From NCBI RefSeq assembly GCF_024713975.1, contig NC_091098.1:12434816-12498815 (forward strand): a stretch of 64,000 bases of DNA. The letters run 5' to 3'. The position numbers and the translations under genes are program-made. The stretch is from Paralichthys olivaceus. Lineage: Eukaryota > Chordata > Actinopteri > Pleuronectiformes > Paralichthyidae. The first letter of the stretch is position 1, and each line of letters opens with the position of its first letter. Below the pieces are notes generated by a model. It did not search any database, had not been told where the DNA came from, and worked only from the letters and a program-made list of their open reading frames with translations. Below, piece after piece: positions 28,901-41,059 of the stretch.

Positions 28901-31900
28901 GTCCATGTAGTGTAAAGGTGCGTGATCCACTCAAACGTGTTAAATACCAGGGAACCTCTCACTAGACTAGTCTAGTTGGAATTGACAAGCACAATATGTT
29001 CTAGACTGCACTGCCCAGTTACACAGAAAAAGCATTTGACTCTGATTCAAACCCTTGAGCTACAGAGGACAACAGGAAGGTGCTGTGTTACCTCTGCTGC
29101 GCTCGGTCCAATGGGAGGATTGTATGCAGCGTTTCGATATCTCAGTGAGGCGAGAGAGGCGGCAGACTGGATGGATTGAGTCCTAGATGTGCTGTGCTTC
29201 TTTTCTGCATTGTAGTGAGAGGGGGGCTTGAAGATTCCATTACTGCTGACTGTAGAGCGAGGTTTGGGTAGCAGCAGGATTGGCGAGGGGGTGTCCTGGC
29301 CGGCAGGGTCAGGGGAGGCAGGGAGTGGGGATCCCCGCGGGGTGACAAGAGGAGAGAAGGTCAAATCCAAGGTTGAGACTGACCCCGCATCAGCTGTGAG
29401 GGTCCAAAATAAACACAGATGTTCAAACAGCTGGCCACAGGAGGAGGATAGAGAGTAAAAGGTCAATATATACATGCTTTGCTACGCATCAACTTACAGT
29501 TAGGAGGCTGTCGAGCAACAGGGTTATTTATGTAAGAGTTTTAAAACTTAAATACAAAATATATTATAACTGAAATGGCTAAAACAATGCTTTACATAAC
29601 CACATCATAACCACGTACACAGCCATAATAAAAGCTGTTTTTTAGTCCAAGTGAAACTCATAAAGAACATAATAGATAAAACTGGAAATATAAAAAGACA
29701 AAATAAATGCCATCCAACAATCAGTAGAAAAATAGATTAAAAAAAGACAATGCTATATATATTGTTTGAGACGCTGAACACCCAGGTAAGACTCCTTCAT
29801 AGAGACCGAATACAAATTGAGGATGTCAGGTCCAGGTGAACCGTGCTGGGGGGATGGTCTTGACTGTTTTGTTGTGATATCGCACAGGTTACTTTACTTA
29901 TTTTTACTGTATTTGAATATGTTCACATTTATACAGAACCTAGACCTGCTTCATGATGACAAAAAGTCATTGATCTCACTTTATGGGCAATAGACCTTCA
30001 TGTACATCTGAAAGACAGGCACTAAGAGAGGGCAGTGTTATACAGAGGTCTGCTTGCCTGGTGAGAGCTGTATGTCCATCCCAGGAACACACAAAGCCAA
30101 GTGTGTGAGAGAGTGAGAGACTATTAGCAGGGCAAAGAGCACTGCACACAGATCTACAATAATGCCATGGAACAAACACTCTTTTTAAGACTTGTGATGT
30201 ATTAATGAGAAGCGTGAAATAAAATTGATGATGATGAAACTGTGGTAGGACAAATTAGACAATGAAAGGCCTCCACAGTTTAAGTAATAAGAAACATTAG
30301 GGACCGTTAAGTAATGTACTGTATGCGCCCACTGTGATGGAATTAATAATCCATTTGACCCCATCATGAAACATAGAGTAGACATTAGCTGATATCAAAG
30401 GAGTCAAATGACTGTTATCTAACTCAGATGTTGGTGAGTATCTGTCCAGTCTTACATCTCATCCTCTCAATGGAAGGAGGCGACGGACAGAACGAGGTCT
30501 GGCGAGCAGCCAGCTTCTCCTTCAATGCATTCATCTGTTCTTGGACAGGGGTGATTTTTTTCTTACTAAACTTCGAAGTGACTTGAAGGACATTCTCAGG
30601 CTTCTTCTTCTGAAAAACAGAGTGTGTCTGTTATATATCTGAATCAAGAAACCCAAAACCTGTTCAGGCCCACAACTCGCTCAGTGACTACATTCAAAAA
30701 TTATGCTACAGTCCATACTAACTAAACAACATCATCAGTGACTAATCAGAAGTATTGTATATTCTTCAGATTTAAGTACTGTAAACTAATATATGTGGAA
30801 TGTCAACAAGATTTACAGCTGATTTACAGCTGCCTGCGGTGGAAATGTTCTTTGTAATTGCCTGACAAAAGCAAAATTGTTTTCCATCCCTTGCATTACT
30901 GCTAGTTTATGTTTGTTTCAATGAAATTAGCCCCAAAAGCATTAGATGATGCTTGAGGGACAAATGGAACCATCTGTCGAGTTTAGTGTAGCTCTGATGT
31001 AGTTGATATCAACCATGGAGGATGTCATTAAAATGTTAGACATTACAAATATCAGTGCCATAAATTATTAACCTGTTTGGATCATTGTAGTTTTACAGCC
31101 CAACACAAAAAAAGCAAAAAAGAGGATTAGACAAAAGTCAGACAAAACAAATCACTAAGTTGAACATGCTTCTAGTGACATTGATGTTTTCTGATAAACT
31201 AAGATACACAGATGCTTTATGGGATGAATGGATAATCGTTTCATGAGGATAACATGAAAAATGAACTCTATGACCTGTACCTTGGAAGTAGATGGCTGTT
31301 CTGACTCTATATCCAAGCGGCTGCTGAGATGACTGCTCTCTAGTTTCAGGGAGCCTTTGGTTGGTTGTTTGGTATTAGACTTTTTCTTCATCTCCTGAGC
31401 AGCCTCATGAGTTTTCTCAGTGTTATTCAGATGGTCATAGGCAGAGTACTATTATTAAGGGACAAAGAAAATATGATTTTTATCTATTTCCAAGATCACG
31501 ATAATAATTTGCTTTGTTATGCTCCTCCTCATGGTATGAGTTGATCCCACTTGTGTTTTACTTGGGTTGTGAAATGTGCCTAACTCAAATTTCAAACAGT
31601 ATATGATTAAATACATGCGATTAATATCAAGTGTTTTAGGTCCTTGTCTAAATCTTCTGTTCACTTGTTCAAGAGAACATATATATTCAAAGTAAGTTAC
31701 ATTATTTTACATGTTCTTGCTAAGGGCCTTTTAAAACACAGACACAATTTGCTTGACATCTCTCATGAGTAATTCATGTTGTCAAAATACCAAAATGGTG
31801 ATTGGTCAGATCTGTGTCATTTGTTCTGCAGTGTTTCAAAAGAGGACAAACTGGCAAAACAGACACAGGTTTTAGAGAAGCATTTGCCTTAGGAGCAGGA

Positions 31901-34900
31901 GGCCTCTCTGACTCTGACTGGCTTTCGTCAGTATCTGCCTCCCTGTAGCTCTTGGTAGAAGTGGCTGCAGCTCTCCTGGGCCTCCTGCCTGCTGCATGTG
32001 GTCTGTTGGGTGCTTCTGCTGCTGGCTTCACCATCTTCTTTGGCTGCTCCACTCTCGCCTTCACATTTTGCTTCTGCTTAAACAAGAGTGACACACTGTG
32101 GCTGACTGTGATAGTGCATTACAAGCTTAGAGCAAATGATTTATATAAAAGCAATACTGCCTTACTTTATTTGGTTTGGTGTTACCCTTTACAGGTTTTG
32201 GGGAGGGAGATGGCAAATGTGACGATTCCCCTGATCAGAGATAAAGCACATCCTCTTTATGGAAATACTAATGTCTGCCTGTGATCTTATCAACATCCAG
32301 TCTAAATGGACAAGTAAATAAAAGCATGAATGTGCAGCTTTGTGAGCTTACATGAAGTTTGAGGTGTCTCAGCTTTAGGGTTGATGGGTGCCTGCCTTGA
32401 ATATTTGGTAACTTTGGGTTTGGGTTTCCTGCTTGACTCCCTCAGCCAGCTGACCTCTGTCATGGTATAGTCTGTATCGGTGTCACTAAACAAATGCTTT
32501 TTCACATGCTGCTTCTCCTGTTAAACAATAGGAGTGGGGAATAGAGAGATATATTTAAGGAGAGAAAAATCAAGGGAGCGAAAACTGAAAGCAATGAGAT
32601 ATTTTTCAATGATTGCTGTATAATTATTGTCCCTATGAGTGTAAGCCTTTTGGAAAGCTGAACATTTTCTTATTTTGCAACATTTGTGTGCTTTCCGTCT
32701 ATTTTCTGATTAAATAATTACATGAGCACAGCAAGCACAAACACACAGAGTATATGAAAGTATACTTTTGTCACAGATTGTCCTTTCTTGGTTGTGTTGT
32801 GGGATCTTGAGGAGTCATGGATGTCACTGTCAAATAATATGGGAGATATGGAATTAGACAGATTCTAATACGAACTATTTACAGAAGGTTACTGTGTTTT
32901 AGCCCAAAGGTGATTCTCCACTGTGAGACCTACCTGCTTAATGAAGCAGAAGTGTTATTGAGGGGTTGTTCCTTTCCCTAAAGAGCAATTATTAAGACTT
33001 TAAACACCACAGTGGTACATCAAGATCTGAGATATAAAATGACTAACTATAGTATTGTTTACCCCAATAGTTGATGGTGTATCAATTCTGAATGCAAAAA
33101 TATCCTTTCTGTTCAAAAGAAAAAAGGCGTTTTATACATTCTAAATTTCACTAAACGTCAGAGATATATTTGAATGTACTTGAAACCTTTAAATTGAATT
33201 ATTTTACCTCGAAGAGTTTGTTGCTCTTTTATTGTGGGATTTCATCATGTTTAAAGCTCTGGATGTATCTTTCTATTGCAGGTAAAGATAATCTTTAGTT
33301 AATCAAGCAGGAAATAAATGACTTAAGATACAGCTAGGAATAAATAAAGTATTGCTTACATTAGCAGTTGGTAACCAGCTCATATTGAAGATTGGCCTGT
33401 TACAAAAATACAAACGATCACTAAGTGGTATGGTTATGCCGAAGTGACATTTATAACATTGCAGAGCCCTGCAAAGCATACCTGTTAACAAGAGGAGGAA
33501 TCAAGCTCCCATGGATATTTTCTGCTTTATGTTTTGCTGTGGATTGAGTGTTAGTCTCATAATGGCTAGAGATGATCTTCACCATGCTTTGTGCAACCTT
33601 TGCATCTCTCTGAGTAGTGACAGTAGAAGGTGTGAGAATAACAATATACAGGAAAACAAAGAATTGAAGAATCAGCATTAATCCCCTAAAATTAAAACAA
33701 TTCATACCTTCTCTTTGTTTGAGAGTTCCCTGTTAGTTTTAGCCCTAATGTTGGGTGTTACTCTCTCCTGCAGTGATGTTGTGTTGGGGGCCTTGACTGG
33801 AGCTTTTTTTGGAACAGCATCTGCCTCTAGTGACATCTGGCCTTTAGTCTTGCCTTTGCCCGAGCCACCTCTCTGGGGTTGCTGCACTTTGGGAGCACAC
33901 AAGGTGGAATAACACTGGTCTGCAGTGGTTCTGCTTTTTGAGTGCCCATTGATATCAGACAGTTTTGTCTGAGATGCCTCTCCAGGTGCACAATCTTGGG
34001 TTCTCTCACTGAGGACCTGCTGCAGGCGCTGGGTGAGTTTGGTATGGAGCTGCTTTTGACTGATTGTGCCTGATTCTGGAACTGACAATCTCAGTGCTGA
34101 GGATGAGCACTCCTGCTGGTGTGACAAACTTGACTGAGGATCTAAAAAGGAAAATTACTGAATTTGAAAACAAAAAATAGGTTTGATAATATTTAATTTT
34201 ACCTGGATGTCGTGTGTGTATTACTATATATTACTGTGCAAAACATTTAGTGATGTTTTAGAATTAGTGAAGATATTTGATAACTTACCAGGTCTTTGCA
34301 GAGTATTTACTTTCTGTGTGGGCATCGTTACCATTTCAGAAACTGACAGTCTGCCCCAGTTAGAAGATCTGAGATTTGAACATAGAAACATGTAAGCCTC
34401 ATATACACCTATTGCATAAACAAAAACATCCATGACCAAATCAGAGCATATATCTGCAGTGCGTAAGTGTGGTGGTTCTCCACAGAGCTTACATGCTTCT
34501 CACAGTTCTGGGCTGGGTGTCAGGCACAAAATTATTATCCTCTGTAAATAAAACAATAAGGGATGGATTCAACAGTCAGTGAAAGATAATGATGTTACTG
34601 TATCTTTGGGTAAAGCTTCAGTCAATACAATACCCAGGGACTGTTCTTCTCCCTGTCCAGTTTGAACTTTATCTACTGCTTTTTCCAAAGGTGTGTTCTG
34701 TACAACAAGCAGAAACAACAAATGTCAGTGTATGATATAGATGGTTTAAATATAACTTTATACAAATTATAGTAGATATGCAGACATATGCAGCTGTGCT
34801 GGTTGGTACCAGAAACATCAATCATTATCTGGGCTTGATTTTCTTCTCTTAACAGTTATGTAATTAAGACAATGGCAATATTAGGTCTATCGTATCATAC

Positions 34901-37900
34901 ATTCATATACTGAAAACATTTCAGAAAGACACTGCAGAAGTAGAGAATGCATAGTACCTTAACTTTAGAAATTAAAAATAATAATTTGATGTTTATACCT
35001 TTTCGTGTTTGCCAACATTGTTGTTATCCACCTTTTTGGTGGCCAAGCTCTAAAGAGACACAGAGAGCACGAAACTGAAGTTTAATTCCAAAGAGCACTA
35101 AGAAAATCTGTGTTGTATGTTAAGTAATAAGTGTGTGTGTCACACCTGCTGTACCATGCCCCCTGCTGTTGTGCTGCTGGGAGTTGTGTGATGACTGCAG
35201 GTCTTTAGTTCTCTCAGGTAAAATTCACCTTGCCTATCACATGAACGAACCATCAGCAAAGATGGCTTCCCTTTACCCTTGGATAGAGTGTCTAAAAGGA
35301 AGGGGGAAAAAAAATCAACAATATGCGACAAGAAGACAAGGGGGGCGATGACCAAGAGGGTCAGAGTCTGAATGCCAACAGGATGATGAATCCAAAGTGT
35401 ATTCAGATGCAAGTTATGAGTAGTGTCTTAACACAAACATGATCTTTACTTTAATAACTGTCACTTTCGAACAGCATATTTTGATACAAAATAAAGGTGC
35501 CCTGTTCAACATTAAATTAAATACAACATAAAAGCTAATGTGTCAATTTGCAGTTAACTAAGAGCAAAGCTGTTAAAAACCAAATTACATTAATTATAAT
35601 GTTTTCTTTAAGACTGAAGACATGGTTAACATACACATGTGCCTCCTGGTTCAACAGCAATACCTTACAGTCTGTAGTGTGCACTTACTTTGCATAACAG
35701 CAGAGAGCGAACCAGCACTGTGCACACTTCCTCCTGTACTGTTGCTTATGAAAGTGGTGGACTCTGAAATCCTCATCTTGGCAGGGGTCAGTATCTGAAT
35801 GGAAAATCAGAATGGCTGTGTCTGTAAATCTTTTGTTTGGGCACATTTATTTGTGTATATAATGTACACACTCTGCATTTTTTTATTTCATTTTATTCTT
35901 TTTCATTCTATTCCTTTTCTTTTATATTTTGTATCATCTTGTCTACCCCATTCTGACTTGATTGCTGCTGTAACAACTGAATTTCCCCCAGTGTATAATG
36001 GGCAATTTAAATGTGATATCCAAATTATCCCCTAAATTAACTAAATGTCATCCTTTATTCCATTTTTAATGGCACAGGATCACAGAAACACAGAAATGTT
36101 ACTGTCAATAAGGATTCAGTGTCTTGCAGAATAAAAAGCACAGAAAAGCTTGAACCTGATATAATCGTTACCTCGCTATTGACACCCCCTACTGGCTGTT
36201 TGAGTGACATACTGTATTCATTTGTTTCATTATGACCAAAAATACAATGTGTGTGTATGTATGTGGTTACTACTGCTTGCTGCAATCTCAAGTGCAGTCA
36301 ATTAAAATCAACACATTCATTAATCTTTACCATCCTCAAAATTCATTCCTCCAAACACCTTACAATTGAGTAATATTTTGCAGCATTTAAATGTAGTGTT
36401 GCTTACTGAACTTCAATTTCAAGCATTTACTGTCATTGAAAAGCTGTACAATGAAACTTAAGTGCAACTCCTCTCAGTGGTACAAAGAGAAAATGAAAAA
36501 TACATTGGAGTACAAAGAAAAAATGGACTAACTGTACATTTAGTGAATTAACATGAATAACATATAAATATATAAATACGTTCCTCTAAATTCTTGAGGG
36601 AATCAAACAAACACTAAGTAAACTGTTCAGGTCGTAATAACTTCTGATGAGAGCTGGTGTTTTTTGTTTAAGTGAAAATTGAACGGGAGGACATCCAGAC
36701 AGGAGACTCAGACACGATACAACCAAACCGCTGCTTCTGTCCTGATCCTGAAGCAGTGGCGCTAATTGTCTATCATTGGCAGTCCGTCGTGGAAATCCTG
36801 AATTCAAGCTTTTGTGTTGGGACGCCACTCAGAAATGTTACCAGCGGAAACACTGCATTAAATGATCATTATTACATTTAAATGCTACATAGTTTTTGTT
36901 TTAATATAAAATGCAAAACTCTTCTACCTGTACAGGTGCAGTCGGAGCAGGCAAAAGATAGGGGGCGGTGCTTATCTCGGTTTCACCAAGGGACACTTGG
37001 CTCTCTGGGACGACCTCCATGGAGAGTGGCATGCAGTACAAACATCTCAACAGTAATTTCGGTTGTCACTTTGATGCTTTTTCAAAATGTTCAAATCAGT
37101 TCAGATATAATAATATCACATTGATGTAAATCTCATTACAAAGGCCAAGCACCTCCTATAAATTCCTTCATATGTTGGCATCCGTGATGACCACATTAAT
37201 CATCATAGCTGTAATATGACAGAATTATGTTAACCGACCATACCATACCTGGGAGCTGTTCTCCTCCATGATGATTTTAACTGTAGTCTTCACCACTGAT
37301 GTGCCCGTCTTCCCTACAAAGCCCTGAAAGGGAAAGATGCTTGTGAATGTAAATCATCTGATTGAAAATCTTCTCTAGACTTTGCTTGGCGCAAAAGCAA
37401 GAATGCTGTGGTTTTTACAAGCCAGGAAGTGTTAAACCAAAGTGAAATGTTACAACTAGATATTCATTAAAATTCATTAAGAGTCAAAACTTCTTGTCAA
37501 AGGATGCCAAGTTCCTCTCAAAGTTATTATTCTACCAATCACATTTTCTACTTGTGCATTTTGGTGTGAAAAACAAAACAAAATAATGATAAATATTCCT
37601 ATTGGCATTGTGACCAATATGGAGGGACTGAATGAGCCATGGCCTACTTTGTTTTTGCTTTGTCCGTAGATGCTACGAGCAGCCTGCTGGATGTCCAGAG
37701 AGGAGCTGAAGTGGATGGTAAGACTCCATCCTTCAATCCCACCAACCATCACCACCTCTGACAGTTTCAACTGCAAGACTTTCCTCTTGCCTTCCTCTGG
37801 AGATCAAAAAACACAGTATATGATACTGTACTCTCAGCCCCACACACAAGAAAATACTTAAAGGTGTTTAAAAACACATAAATCTTAAGTTCAGATCTGC

Positions 37901-40900
37901 ATCAAAATATCTGTGCTCTTTTCTGGATGGGTGGATGTATTGAATACCATAATACGCAACATACTATATACTGTACAGTCAGTTTGGGATGAAATCTGCA
38001 GCTAGAAGCTTTGATTACCTTTAACAGTGTAGCTTTGGACTTCATTCTCATTGATACAGATCGTTTCCCACTGACCCTCCTACATGATGGGAAAATCACT
38101 CTATGTTAGACTGTGACAGATGTCTTATGTTATAAATATAGTTATAAGTTACACAGCATTTTGCAAATTGACTATTAATCTTGAAGTACCTCTCCGTCTC
38201 CATCGGCCAAAGAGAAGTAAAAGGAGATGCTGTGGCTGCCAAGGTTGAAGTCGATCCAGAATTCCTCCAACTTCTCATCAGCAGGCATCAGCAGCTGACA
38301 ACAGAACCACAATCATTTCAACACAGCTACAAACAAACTTATTAGTATATGGAACAGTTCATAATAACAAGAGGGTACTTTTTTCCTTGGGCTGGGTGAT
38401 AAAACAATAACAATAATAACTGCAATATATTTTTCATCAACAGCAATATAGCAAAACTCCAATGAATATCAATATAATGCTAATGAATTGTGAAAGCACA
38501 GTGAGAAGTTATATCACATAATCAATCAACCTCAGATTTGTTTCTGTTTATCAAGTGGTTGCCATTCTCTGCTGGTAAAGAAGAGTTTAAAACCAAAACC
38601 TTTATTCTGGAGCAAAAATCACAAAATTGAATCATGATAATCATTGAAATTAACTGATATGAACATTTCTTGATAACATTTTGATATTTTCTGGCATATT
38701 GCCTACTTGTTCCTATGTATCTTTGCACATCCTGTTTATACTGACCTCATACTTGTCCAGATAAACTTCCAAACAAGGGTATGAATACACCCTACAAGAG
38801 AGAACACTGACATTCAGTTATGTGCATCTTTATTTTGCAAAGCATGTGTCCTACCTTTGTCCTATCTAAAAACCAACAAATTCTGTACATTTAAAAAATC
38901 GTATAACAATATAATTTTTGTTATGAGCTTACATAGAATTACAGTGTATTCTATGGATGCTTGTTATCACTGGTGGTAAGAGACAGATCGATAGCCAAAA
39001 TGGTCATTCTTATTTCTTTGTACTTTGTGTTCGAGCCAAAGGTGTGTACCAGCCAAACTCAATCATATGTAATGCCTTGTGAAGCACTGAGCTATGGTGT
39101 GTATGTATTTTACCTTCTCCTGTCTCCCTGCATCCCATTCACTAAATTGAGAAACTTCCGACAATCCTGAAATCACACACATTTACATTAAATTCTATGT
39201 AACATGTTGTAACATTACAACAATAAATTCCCACAGTATTGCAACAAAATGAAATTGCTGATGAGATAAATTAGTATATTTTACCGTCTCAAACTCAGAA
39301 TCATGGATCTTGGCAAAGGCACTGGCCACATGCACCATGCTGAACCATCGATCTGCCAGCTCCCTCCTCTGGACAGGAGTGGCCATCCTGCACAATGCCT
39401 CGGTCAGGGCTGTCTGCAAGTCGTAATCTGACACAAAACCACTGTACTGTACATTTTTGGTAAGCAGTTTGTAAGTATGGTTCTTGATGAAAAAAAAAAG
39501 GAAAAGACATCATACTACTCATAACACTTACCACCACCCTCCAATATCCGACCAGCCAGCTTGATCCTGTTGAAAATTGTTCAACACAATTCAAGGTTGT
39601 GTAGCTAGTTCGAAATAAAATGTAATAATGACAGTGAGCCAGCTATGAGGAAACTACCAAGACATACATGATATCTGAGGCCTCCTGTGATGTTAGGATC
39701 TTCCTCTCTTTCTTGAGCTCCACTGGGATTTTGTCCAGAATTAGATTAAATTTACGAATTGCCTGTTAGAAAATCATTAGCAAGTTAATCTATGAACAAA
39801 CACCTGACTCACAGTTTTTAGTGCTGCTCAAATAAGCTAAATGGTTATAAAAAAAATGTCAAACCTCCTTCTGGATCAGGATGTAGATTCTAGGATCAAT
39901 TCCCAATTGACCAACAGGATACAGGAAGGACTCTGTGATTTTGTATGTTCCTACAAACAACATATAGGAATACTATCTTCAATAGAGACTTAGCACATAA
40001 ACGGTTTATATTAACTAAGGTTTATCATGAAAGCGTTTAAAGTTAAGCTCTGAGATGGTCCTACAATGATTGTCCTGTATTTTAAAGCATCATTATCTTT
40101 CATGTTAATGTATTGCCACAATCGTTCCTTTTATAAGTGAGAGTTACCTCAAAACAACATTGAGAGCACCTGATTTAACTGTGCCCTCAAATATTAAACA
40201 TGCACTGAGGTTGAATCAGAAATTAAGAAATGTACGAGCGTACCCTCTTTGGAAGCTTCATGTACCACCTATAAGAGAGGACAGAAATCCGTTTTCAGAA
40301 CGGACACTTACATGACTGTTTTATTATAGTAAGTGTTTTACTGTTAGACATTAGCTCACCATTAGGGCATCAAAGAAATCCTCAGAAAGGTTGAACAAAG
40401 TCTCATCCCACTGTGGGCCACAGTGGATCCACAGCTGCCTGCATTTCTCAAACCACTGTACCATGTGCATAAAACCAGATTCAATCAAGAGCTGAATACA
40501 TTTACTCATAGAGCACTCACACACAATTTGGCTTTATATATTAGATGTATACTTATCTTTTTGATAAGGCCACGAACTATCATTCCAGCGAGGCCTTGGC
40601 CACCAGGTAGTTTCAGTTTGTCCCCATATTTGGAGATGATAGCAAGAGCCAGACTAGCTGATTTGGAATCTTTTTGATCCAAACACTAAACAAACAGCAG
40701 AGACATGATTTCATTACACCTGCAAACAGCACATTAGCATGGCATGTTCGTCAGTGTGATGGGCCACATCCTACCTTGTGGACAAGTTTATCCAATTTGG
40801 TGAGAAACTGTTGGGAACAGTTTAAAGAGGTCCCTTCATGTATGTCCCTTTGCAAGAATACATCCAGTGCGTGGGCACCCCCACTCTTCAAGACCTCACC

Positions 40901-41059
40901 AATGACTTTCTCCAACTGCGTAACAAATGCAAACTTTTTCATTGTTACAGTACTTCATCAACAACTATTGGTGAAACGTTACGTTAAGTGACAGTAATGT
41001 TTGTAAGGTGAGCTGTTAAAGTACTGCATTCCCACCTGTGTGTCCTGAGCCGGTGCCAT
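22954..41059 (-). CDS. sycp2: Synaptonemal complex protein 2, 45 coding exons
   Basis: SYCP2 forms the axial/lateral element of meiotic chromosomes with SYCP3. The phase-consistent model encodes 1,605 residues (human about 1,530). Coding exons, 5' to 3': 41059-41036, 40915-40775, 40685-40557, 40464-40360, 40268-40244, 39950-39865, 39762-39668, 39566-39532, 39427-39285, 39166-39114, 38791-38746, 38294-38190, 38079-38019, 37796-37648, 37323-37249, 37014-36928, 35794-35689, 35291-35146, 35049-34999, 34697-34634, 34551-34503, 34368-34289, 34141-33708, 33609-33482, 33396-33360, 33272-33208, 33108-33063, 32977-32934, 32826-32766, 32517-32352, 32230-32166, 32073-31888, 31448-31281, 30609-30456, 29393-29092, 28368-28084, 27966-27915, 27706-27578, 26958-26765, 26438-26344, 25668-25569, 25384-25326, 24019-23941, 23614-23558, 23010-22954. 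Residues 1-~210 form the armadillo-like domain; ~240-420 the Spt16M-like domain ([23 protein letters not shown]). '[19 protein letters not shown]' lies near residue 895. The last ~210 residues form the SYCP3-binding coiled coil. The start MAPAQDTQ has a good context. Introns 40465-40556 (AT-AC) and after 31888 (GC donor) are unusual. Confidence 0.93.
24286..24631 (+). repeat. Dispersed repeat family R1, copy B (sycp2 intron)
   Basis: This is the most complete copy: 'aaatgtcactcagcagagtgcatacctctg' (in two parts) opens it and 'aaaacacaacctcc..gggcagaggtga' closes it. The tacctctg/cagaggt ends are inverted. It lies between coding exons 42 and 43 of sycp2 and has no reading frame. Confidence 0.5.
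24700..24919. mobile_element. hAT-like MITE with terminal inverted repeats
   Basis: The left end CAGGGTTTCCCGCAG and the right end CTGCGGGAAACACTG are 15-base inverted repeats with one mismatch. Both abut (TA)n sequence that could contain an 8-base target duplication (aatatata/atatatat). The interior holds a further palindrome (gatccaacac..gtgttggatc type, 24790-24837) and no ORF. At 220 bases it is a non-autonomous element. Assignment to hAT rests on the CAGKGTTTCCCGCAG-type ends and is tentative. Confidence 0.65.
26105..26283. repeat. Dispersed repeat family R2, copy 1 (sycp2 intron)
   Basis: It shares 'caaagagc.ctgcacacag.tctac' (allowing mismatches), 'gagaag.gt', 'aactgtggt.ag.acaaattaga' and 'taat..gaaaca' in the same order with 30103-30299. 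Both copies are intronic, in the same orientation, and non-coding. Confidence 0.5.
30103..30299. repeat. Dispersed repeat family R2, copy 2 (sycp2 intron)
   Basis: It is the diverged counterpart of 26105-26283: 'gcaaagagcactgcacaca', 'gatctacaata', 'aatgagaagcgtg', 'gaaactgtggtaggacaaatta'. Local duplication and independent insertion are both possible. Confidence 0.5.
38391..38712 (+). repeat. Non-autonomous DNA-transposon-like repeat, copy 2
   Basis: It begins 'gggctgggtgataaaaca', contains 'gtttatcaagtggttgccat', 'tctctgctggtaaagaagag' and 'tttaaaaccaaaacctttat', and ends in a degraded 'ttctggcatattgcctac'. The core matches copy 1 at 4715-5031 closely. It lies between sycp2 exons 11 and 12. 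Confidence 0.5.
40465..40556 (-). other. sycp2: Apparent AT-AC intron in sycp2
   Basis: On the minus strand exon 3 ends ...GGC CTT ATC AAA AAG and the intron runs ATAAGTATAC...TTTTATGCAC. Exon 4 then opens ATG GTA CAG TGG TTT GAG. The joint encodes GLIKK|MVQWFEK, matching the human SYCP2 stretch GLIQKMVAWFEK as I recall it. The GT-AG alternatives I tried (GT at ATAA|GTATAC with AG at attcag or gtacag) break the frame. The 5' site is a U1-type GTAAGTAT with G1 changed to A, not the U12 consensus ATATCC. A U2-dependent AT-AC intron is therefore the best reading. Confidence 0.65.

Follow-up and report, generated by a model that had tools for sequence, protein, structure and literature searches.

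Which bases bound the third coding intron of sycp2 in the flounder Paralichthys olivaceus, and which spliceosome removes it? The intron lies in the stretch of 64,000 nucleotides analysed here (the window), and it begins with AT and ends with AC. U2-type introns with such ends are few, and they are mostly cited from sodium-channel genes. We consider it very probable that the major spliceosome removes this one, as an AT-AC intron of U2 type. The teleost intron and intron 5 of human SYCP2 are most likely orthologs. The features concerned are as follows, with a slash marking a splice junction.

31281..41059, minus strand: part of sycp2 modelled, coding exons 1-33, 1085 aa (hand-built; identity to P0012)
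40557..40685, minus strand: sycp2 coding exon 3, 3' end GGCCTTATCAAAAAG (hand-built model)
40556-40465, minus strand: AT-AC intron of sycp2, coding intron 3, 92 nt, phase 0, starting ATAAGTATAC and ending TTTTATGCAC (letters and frame enumeration)
40360..40464, minus strand: sycp2 coding exon 4, 5' end ATGGTACAGTGG (hand-built model)
40547..40559, minus strand: 5' splice site AAG/ATAAGTATAC (U1 duplex fold)
40465..40470, minus strand: 3' splice site ATGCAC/ATG (letters, frame and the codon before the join in relatives reading out)
40484..40488, minus strand: TTGAT, a yUnAy match and candidate branch site of U2 type; its A is at 40485, separated by 20 nt from exon 4 (pattern match only)
40456..40520, minus strand: frame-open GT-AG alternative TGT/GTGAGT...TACAG, 65 nt (enumeration; judged not to be the main intron)

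Joined by hand, exons 1-23 gave 763 residues with no stop, and the addition of exons 24-33 extended the product to 1085 residues; of the 32 introns spanned, GT-AG ends occur in 30, GC-AG ends in one and AT-AC ends in one, at 40556-40465. Synaptonemal complex protein 2 of P. olivaceus (P0012), which is possibly itself a predicted protein, came up in a protein search with 100% identity across 280 scored residues, and across all 1085 residues it showed no mismatch to the model, the sole difference being one extra P0012 residue at a NAGNAG acceptor. This acceptor, AAGCAG, stands ahead of exon 32 (32074-32079, minus strand), where P0012 has one more Q than the model. Intron 32 is apparently GC-AG (AAG/GCAAAT...AATAG; 31449-31887, minus strand), and the protein joined across it equals P0012. 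Around 39428-39531 (minus strand), exons 8 and 9 are 35 and 143 nt long; the exon 8 and exon 9 pieces measure 34 and 143 bp in a minigene spanning zebrafish sycp2 intron 8, the site of the mis-splicing mutation named its (PMC7062287). Since these sizes are close, zebrafish numbering may also make the AT-AC intron number 3.

In minus-strand sequence the intron is flanked by AAAAAG upstream and by ATGGTACAG downstream, and its AT and AC ends are fixed by the reading frame, by mouse SYCP2 and by relatives. Every GT-AG, GC-AG and AT-AC choice of at least 30 nt around the site was enumerated if it joined exon 3 to exon 4 in an open frame, which gave 59 choices (15 GT-AG, 21 GC-AG and 23 AT-AC). Only one, 40556-40465, produced GLIKKMVQWFEK, that is, the join GLIKK/MVQWFEK. 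The sequence-only reading was thus exact in its coordinates, the 92-nt length, both ends and the join, and right that this junction alone restores the SYCP2 sequence, while its statement that GT-AG options run into a stop within a few codons is not general, as 15 of them stay open. Mouse SYCP2 (PDB 5iwz) reads GLVQKMVSWFEN, with no alignment gap over the flounder join. Judged by this ungapped alignment and by codons of relatives fitting AT...AC, the AT-AC join goes beyond chance. When the intron is retained, the flounder reading frame meets a stop within it.

AT-AC introns of the minor class carry a 5' splice site with the consensus ATATCCTTT, and the U12 branch site, TTCCTTRAY, lies close to the 3' end of the intron. 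That the flounder intron is one of these U12-type introns, spliced by U11/U12, seems to us very unlikely, even though roughly one in four human introns of the minor class has AT-AC ends (PMC8280824). The donor ATAAGTAT pairs with U1 at -2, -1 and +2 to +8, is mismatched at -3 and +1, and has G at +5, and it otherwise fits U1; this bears out the earlier description of a U1 site with A at +1. The duplex energy of this donor with the U1 5' end was -5.8 kcal/mol, rank 19 of the 33 sycp2 donors, which is ordinary and not exceptionally strong. The U12 5' splice site ATATCCTT was not found at the donor, where ATAAGTATA agrees with the consensus ATATCCTTT at only 4/9 positions and has G at +5. Near the 3' end of the intron, GCTCTTGAT has a faint U12 branch-site likeness of 6/9, but within the last 50 bases the best match to the U12 branch consensus is 6/9, a score equalled by 81% of 20000 shuffles. 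No weight was given to U11 duplex energies, because they do not discriminate: several ordinary GT donors of sycp2 come out below the canonical U12 site. What defines U12-type introns is the conservation of their 5' site and branch site (PMC3584512). A 2021 study that covered 85 major AT-AC introns or related subtypes names intron 5 of human SYCP2, in its Fig 5E legend, as belonging to the major (U2-type) AT-AC class (PMC8280824). The sycp2 intron shares its terminal dinucleotides with U12-type AT-AC introns, but has neither a U12 5' site nor an above-chance U12 branch site, and the U12-type reading was rejected on the donor letters and the branch-site scan. Splicing by the major spliceosome, as first proposed, fits both the donor and the absent U12 signals and is probably what the flounder intron undergoes. 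On the acceptor side, yUnAy is matched at two further places in the intron besides TTGAT at 40488-40484, and the candidate branch site and pyrimidine tract are weak in appearance.

Could a GT-AG intron be used here instead, with the AT-AC join an artefact of protein-guided annotation? We find this highly improbable. Fifteen GT-AG choices do hold the frame open, but the conserved GLIKKMVQWFEK comes from none of them; the best-looking by eye, 40520-40456, would swap the conserved MVQ for 12 intron-encoded residues, and the GT-AG alternatives were rejected after enumeration. Homologues were counted in the best 120 of the 276 proteins passing the flounder search (P0012-P0131), a set that includes isoforms of single species and in which the named proteins are from fish. 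Within these best 120, 105 have the direct join of exon 3 to exon 4. The residue preceding the join in the 105 is K, except for M in P0027 and P0112, and counted among them are three proteins with MVQ replaced, by IKQ in P0034 and by IIQ in P0072 and P0114. The direct join is also present in the mammal-like P0132-P0134, from contigs of 967, 1151 and 1350 nt.

The other 15 of the best 120 of 276 (P0075, P0077, P0082, P0085, P0086, P0092, P0095, P0101, P0105, P0106, P0107, P0108, P0111, P0118 and P0119) show intron stretches, skipped exons (in some, exon 3) or other joins; P0077 (RKIKWFEK), one residue short, was scored as lacking the join and not as reading into the intron. Some of them speak for a GT-AG intron, as WFEK, the point at which the TACAG acceptor would join, is where P0105 resumes after an intron-like insert and where P0108 and P0111, which lack exon 3, resume too. 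Against this, the 15 differ among themselves, as if software avoids AT-AC, and the join is carried by two compact contigs: P0064 (1600 aa from a 5191-nt contig, nearest named relative in the set Acanthochromis polyacanthus at 78% identity) and P0113 (1513 aa from a 5074-nt contig, nearest Maylandia zebra at 93%). Both were taken as transcripts because they are too compact for an unspliced gene with more than 30 introns, although they could be retrocopies.

The AT-AC ends can also be followed in relatives whose proteins read into or out of the intron; here the intron ends are inferred from protein codons, and the read-ins and read-outs were picked by eye. The donor read-in pattern gave chance matches too (e.g. 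P0010, P0011, P0089 and P0090), and 13 true read-ins in the frame of exon 3 were chosen by eye: P0001, P0002, P0003, P0005, P0082, P0086, P0092, P0095, P0101, P0105, P0107, P0137 and P0138. After exon 3 these proteins continue with I-S in 11 cases, M-S in one (P0101) and I-I in one (P0082), so that 12/13 show the coding expected from ATAAGT or ATGAGT, and V, which a GT donor in the same phase would give, occurs in none of the 13. P0004 and P0009 cross the donor in another frame as K-D-K-Y, which is compatible with G/ATAAGTAT. At the acceptor, all 14 read-outs into MxxWF (carp P0007 included) have H or Y directly before M, coded by CAC or TAC as an AC intron end predicts, and K, Q or E, expected from an AG end in the same phase, stands there in none of the 14. 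A base error at 40556 that makes a GT-AG intron look AT-AC, the refuting case named by the sequence-only reading, is a negligible prospect and was rejected on these codons of other species. One changed donor base would indeed give a GTAAGT-like sequence, but I-S or M-S in 12/13 relatives and V in none argue against it, and the acceptor would need to be wrong too.

Several gene models break at the same place. The very short public models P0001 and P0002 (Pagothenia borchgrevinki and Lates japonicus) end inside the AT-AC intron, and P0006 and P0007 (Pangasius djambal and carp) begin at or shortly before exon 4. With these short models and the 15 proteins lacking the join among the best 120 of 276, gene annotation seems to break or stumble at the sycp2 AT-AC site.

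The comparison extends to mammals. From LEKC to VQK, P0137 is the same as mouse SYCP2, after which it reads ISTFS, and the mammal-like P0138 reads VQK-ISIEY. At the level of protein, both enter the intron after the same K as the flounder and with I-S codons; the intron site thus appears to be common to fish and mammals, and the donor codons in both groups are ones that ATAAGT could supply. From this site and these donor codons, as seen in P0137 and P0138, we infer that human SYCP2 intron 5 is probably the same intron as flounder coding intron 3, the difference in number presumably reflecting upstream non-coding exons. If the shared site and donor reflect common descent, the intron would be at least as old as the split of ray-finned fish and mammals. 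P0137, a 908-nt contig matching mouse, is continuous across earlier exons and then runs into the AT-AC intron, a hint of retention from one contig.

For U2-type AT-AC introns it is established that A(+1)-C(-1) replaces the usual G-G pair. The U2-type reading of the flounder intron would then work as follows. U1 would recognise AAG/AUAAGUAU even with an A as the first intron base, U2 would bind the weak yUnAy branch site, and in the second step the A(+1)-C(-1) pair would stand in for G-G. Removal of the intron would leave the N-terminal armadillo-like domain of SYCP2 whole. The intron may be trapped as AT-AC because changing one end alone would impair splicing. It is doubtful, in our view, that AT-AC ends have been kept since the common ancestor of fish and mammals as something useful, slow splicing throttling SYCP2; the idea is drawn from the stop that an unspliced flounder copy meets in the intron and from P0137 running into it.

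Two known systems are close to this intron. Human SYCP2 intron 5 is in the same gene, belongs to the same class of AT-AC introns (PMC8280824) and probably lies at the same position, whereas the flounder intron is a fish sequence of 92 nt. The U2-type AT-AC introns of sodium-channel genes, SCN4A intron 21 among them, share the AT-AC ends and G at +5, and splicing of SCN4A intron 21 requires the major spliceosome (PMC2831892); sycp2, in contrast, is an unrelated gene, and for its fish intron this requirement is a prediction from sequence. A major-class AT-AC intron in SYCP2 is already published for human, in the 2021 study (PMC8280824), which weakens the claim of the sequence-only reading that the find is notable; its further point, that conservation would add interest, is upheld at the protein level. 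What would appear to be new is an AT-AC intron common to fish and mammals, and in the open-licence literature we found no report of teleost conservation of the SYCP2 AT-AC intron or of its effect on gene models.

PMC2831892 proposes the idea of a trapped intron, in which leaving the AT-AC state needs both ends to be changed together, and the sycp2 intron fits this idea. A deeply conserved AT-AC intron in a gene that meiotic chromosome synapsis requires would support it, and on the practical side, this site appears to be one where gene prediction has trouble with sycp2.
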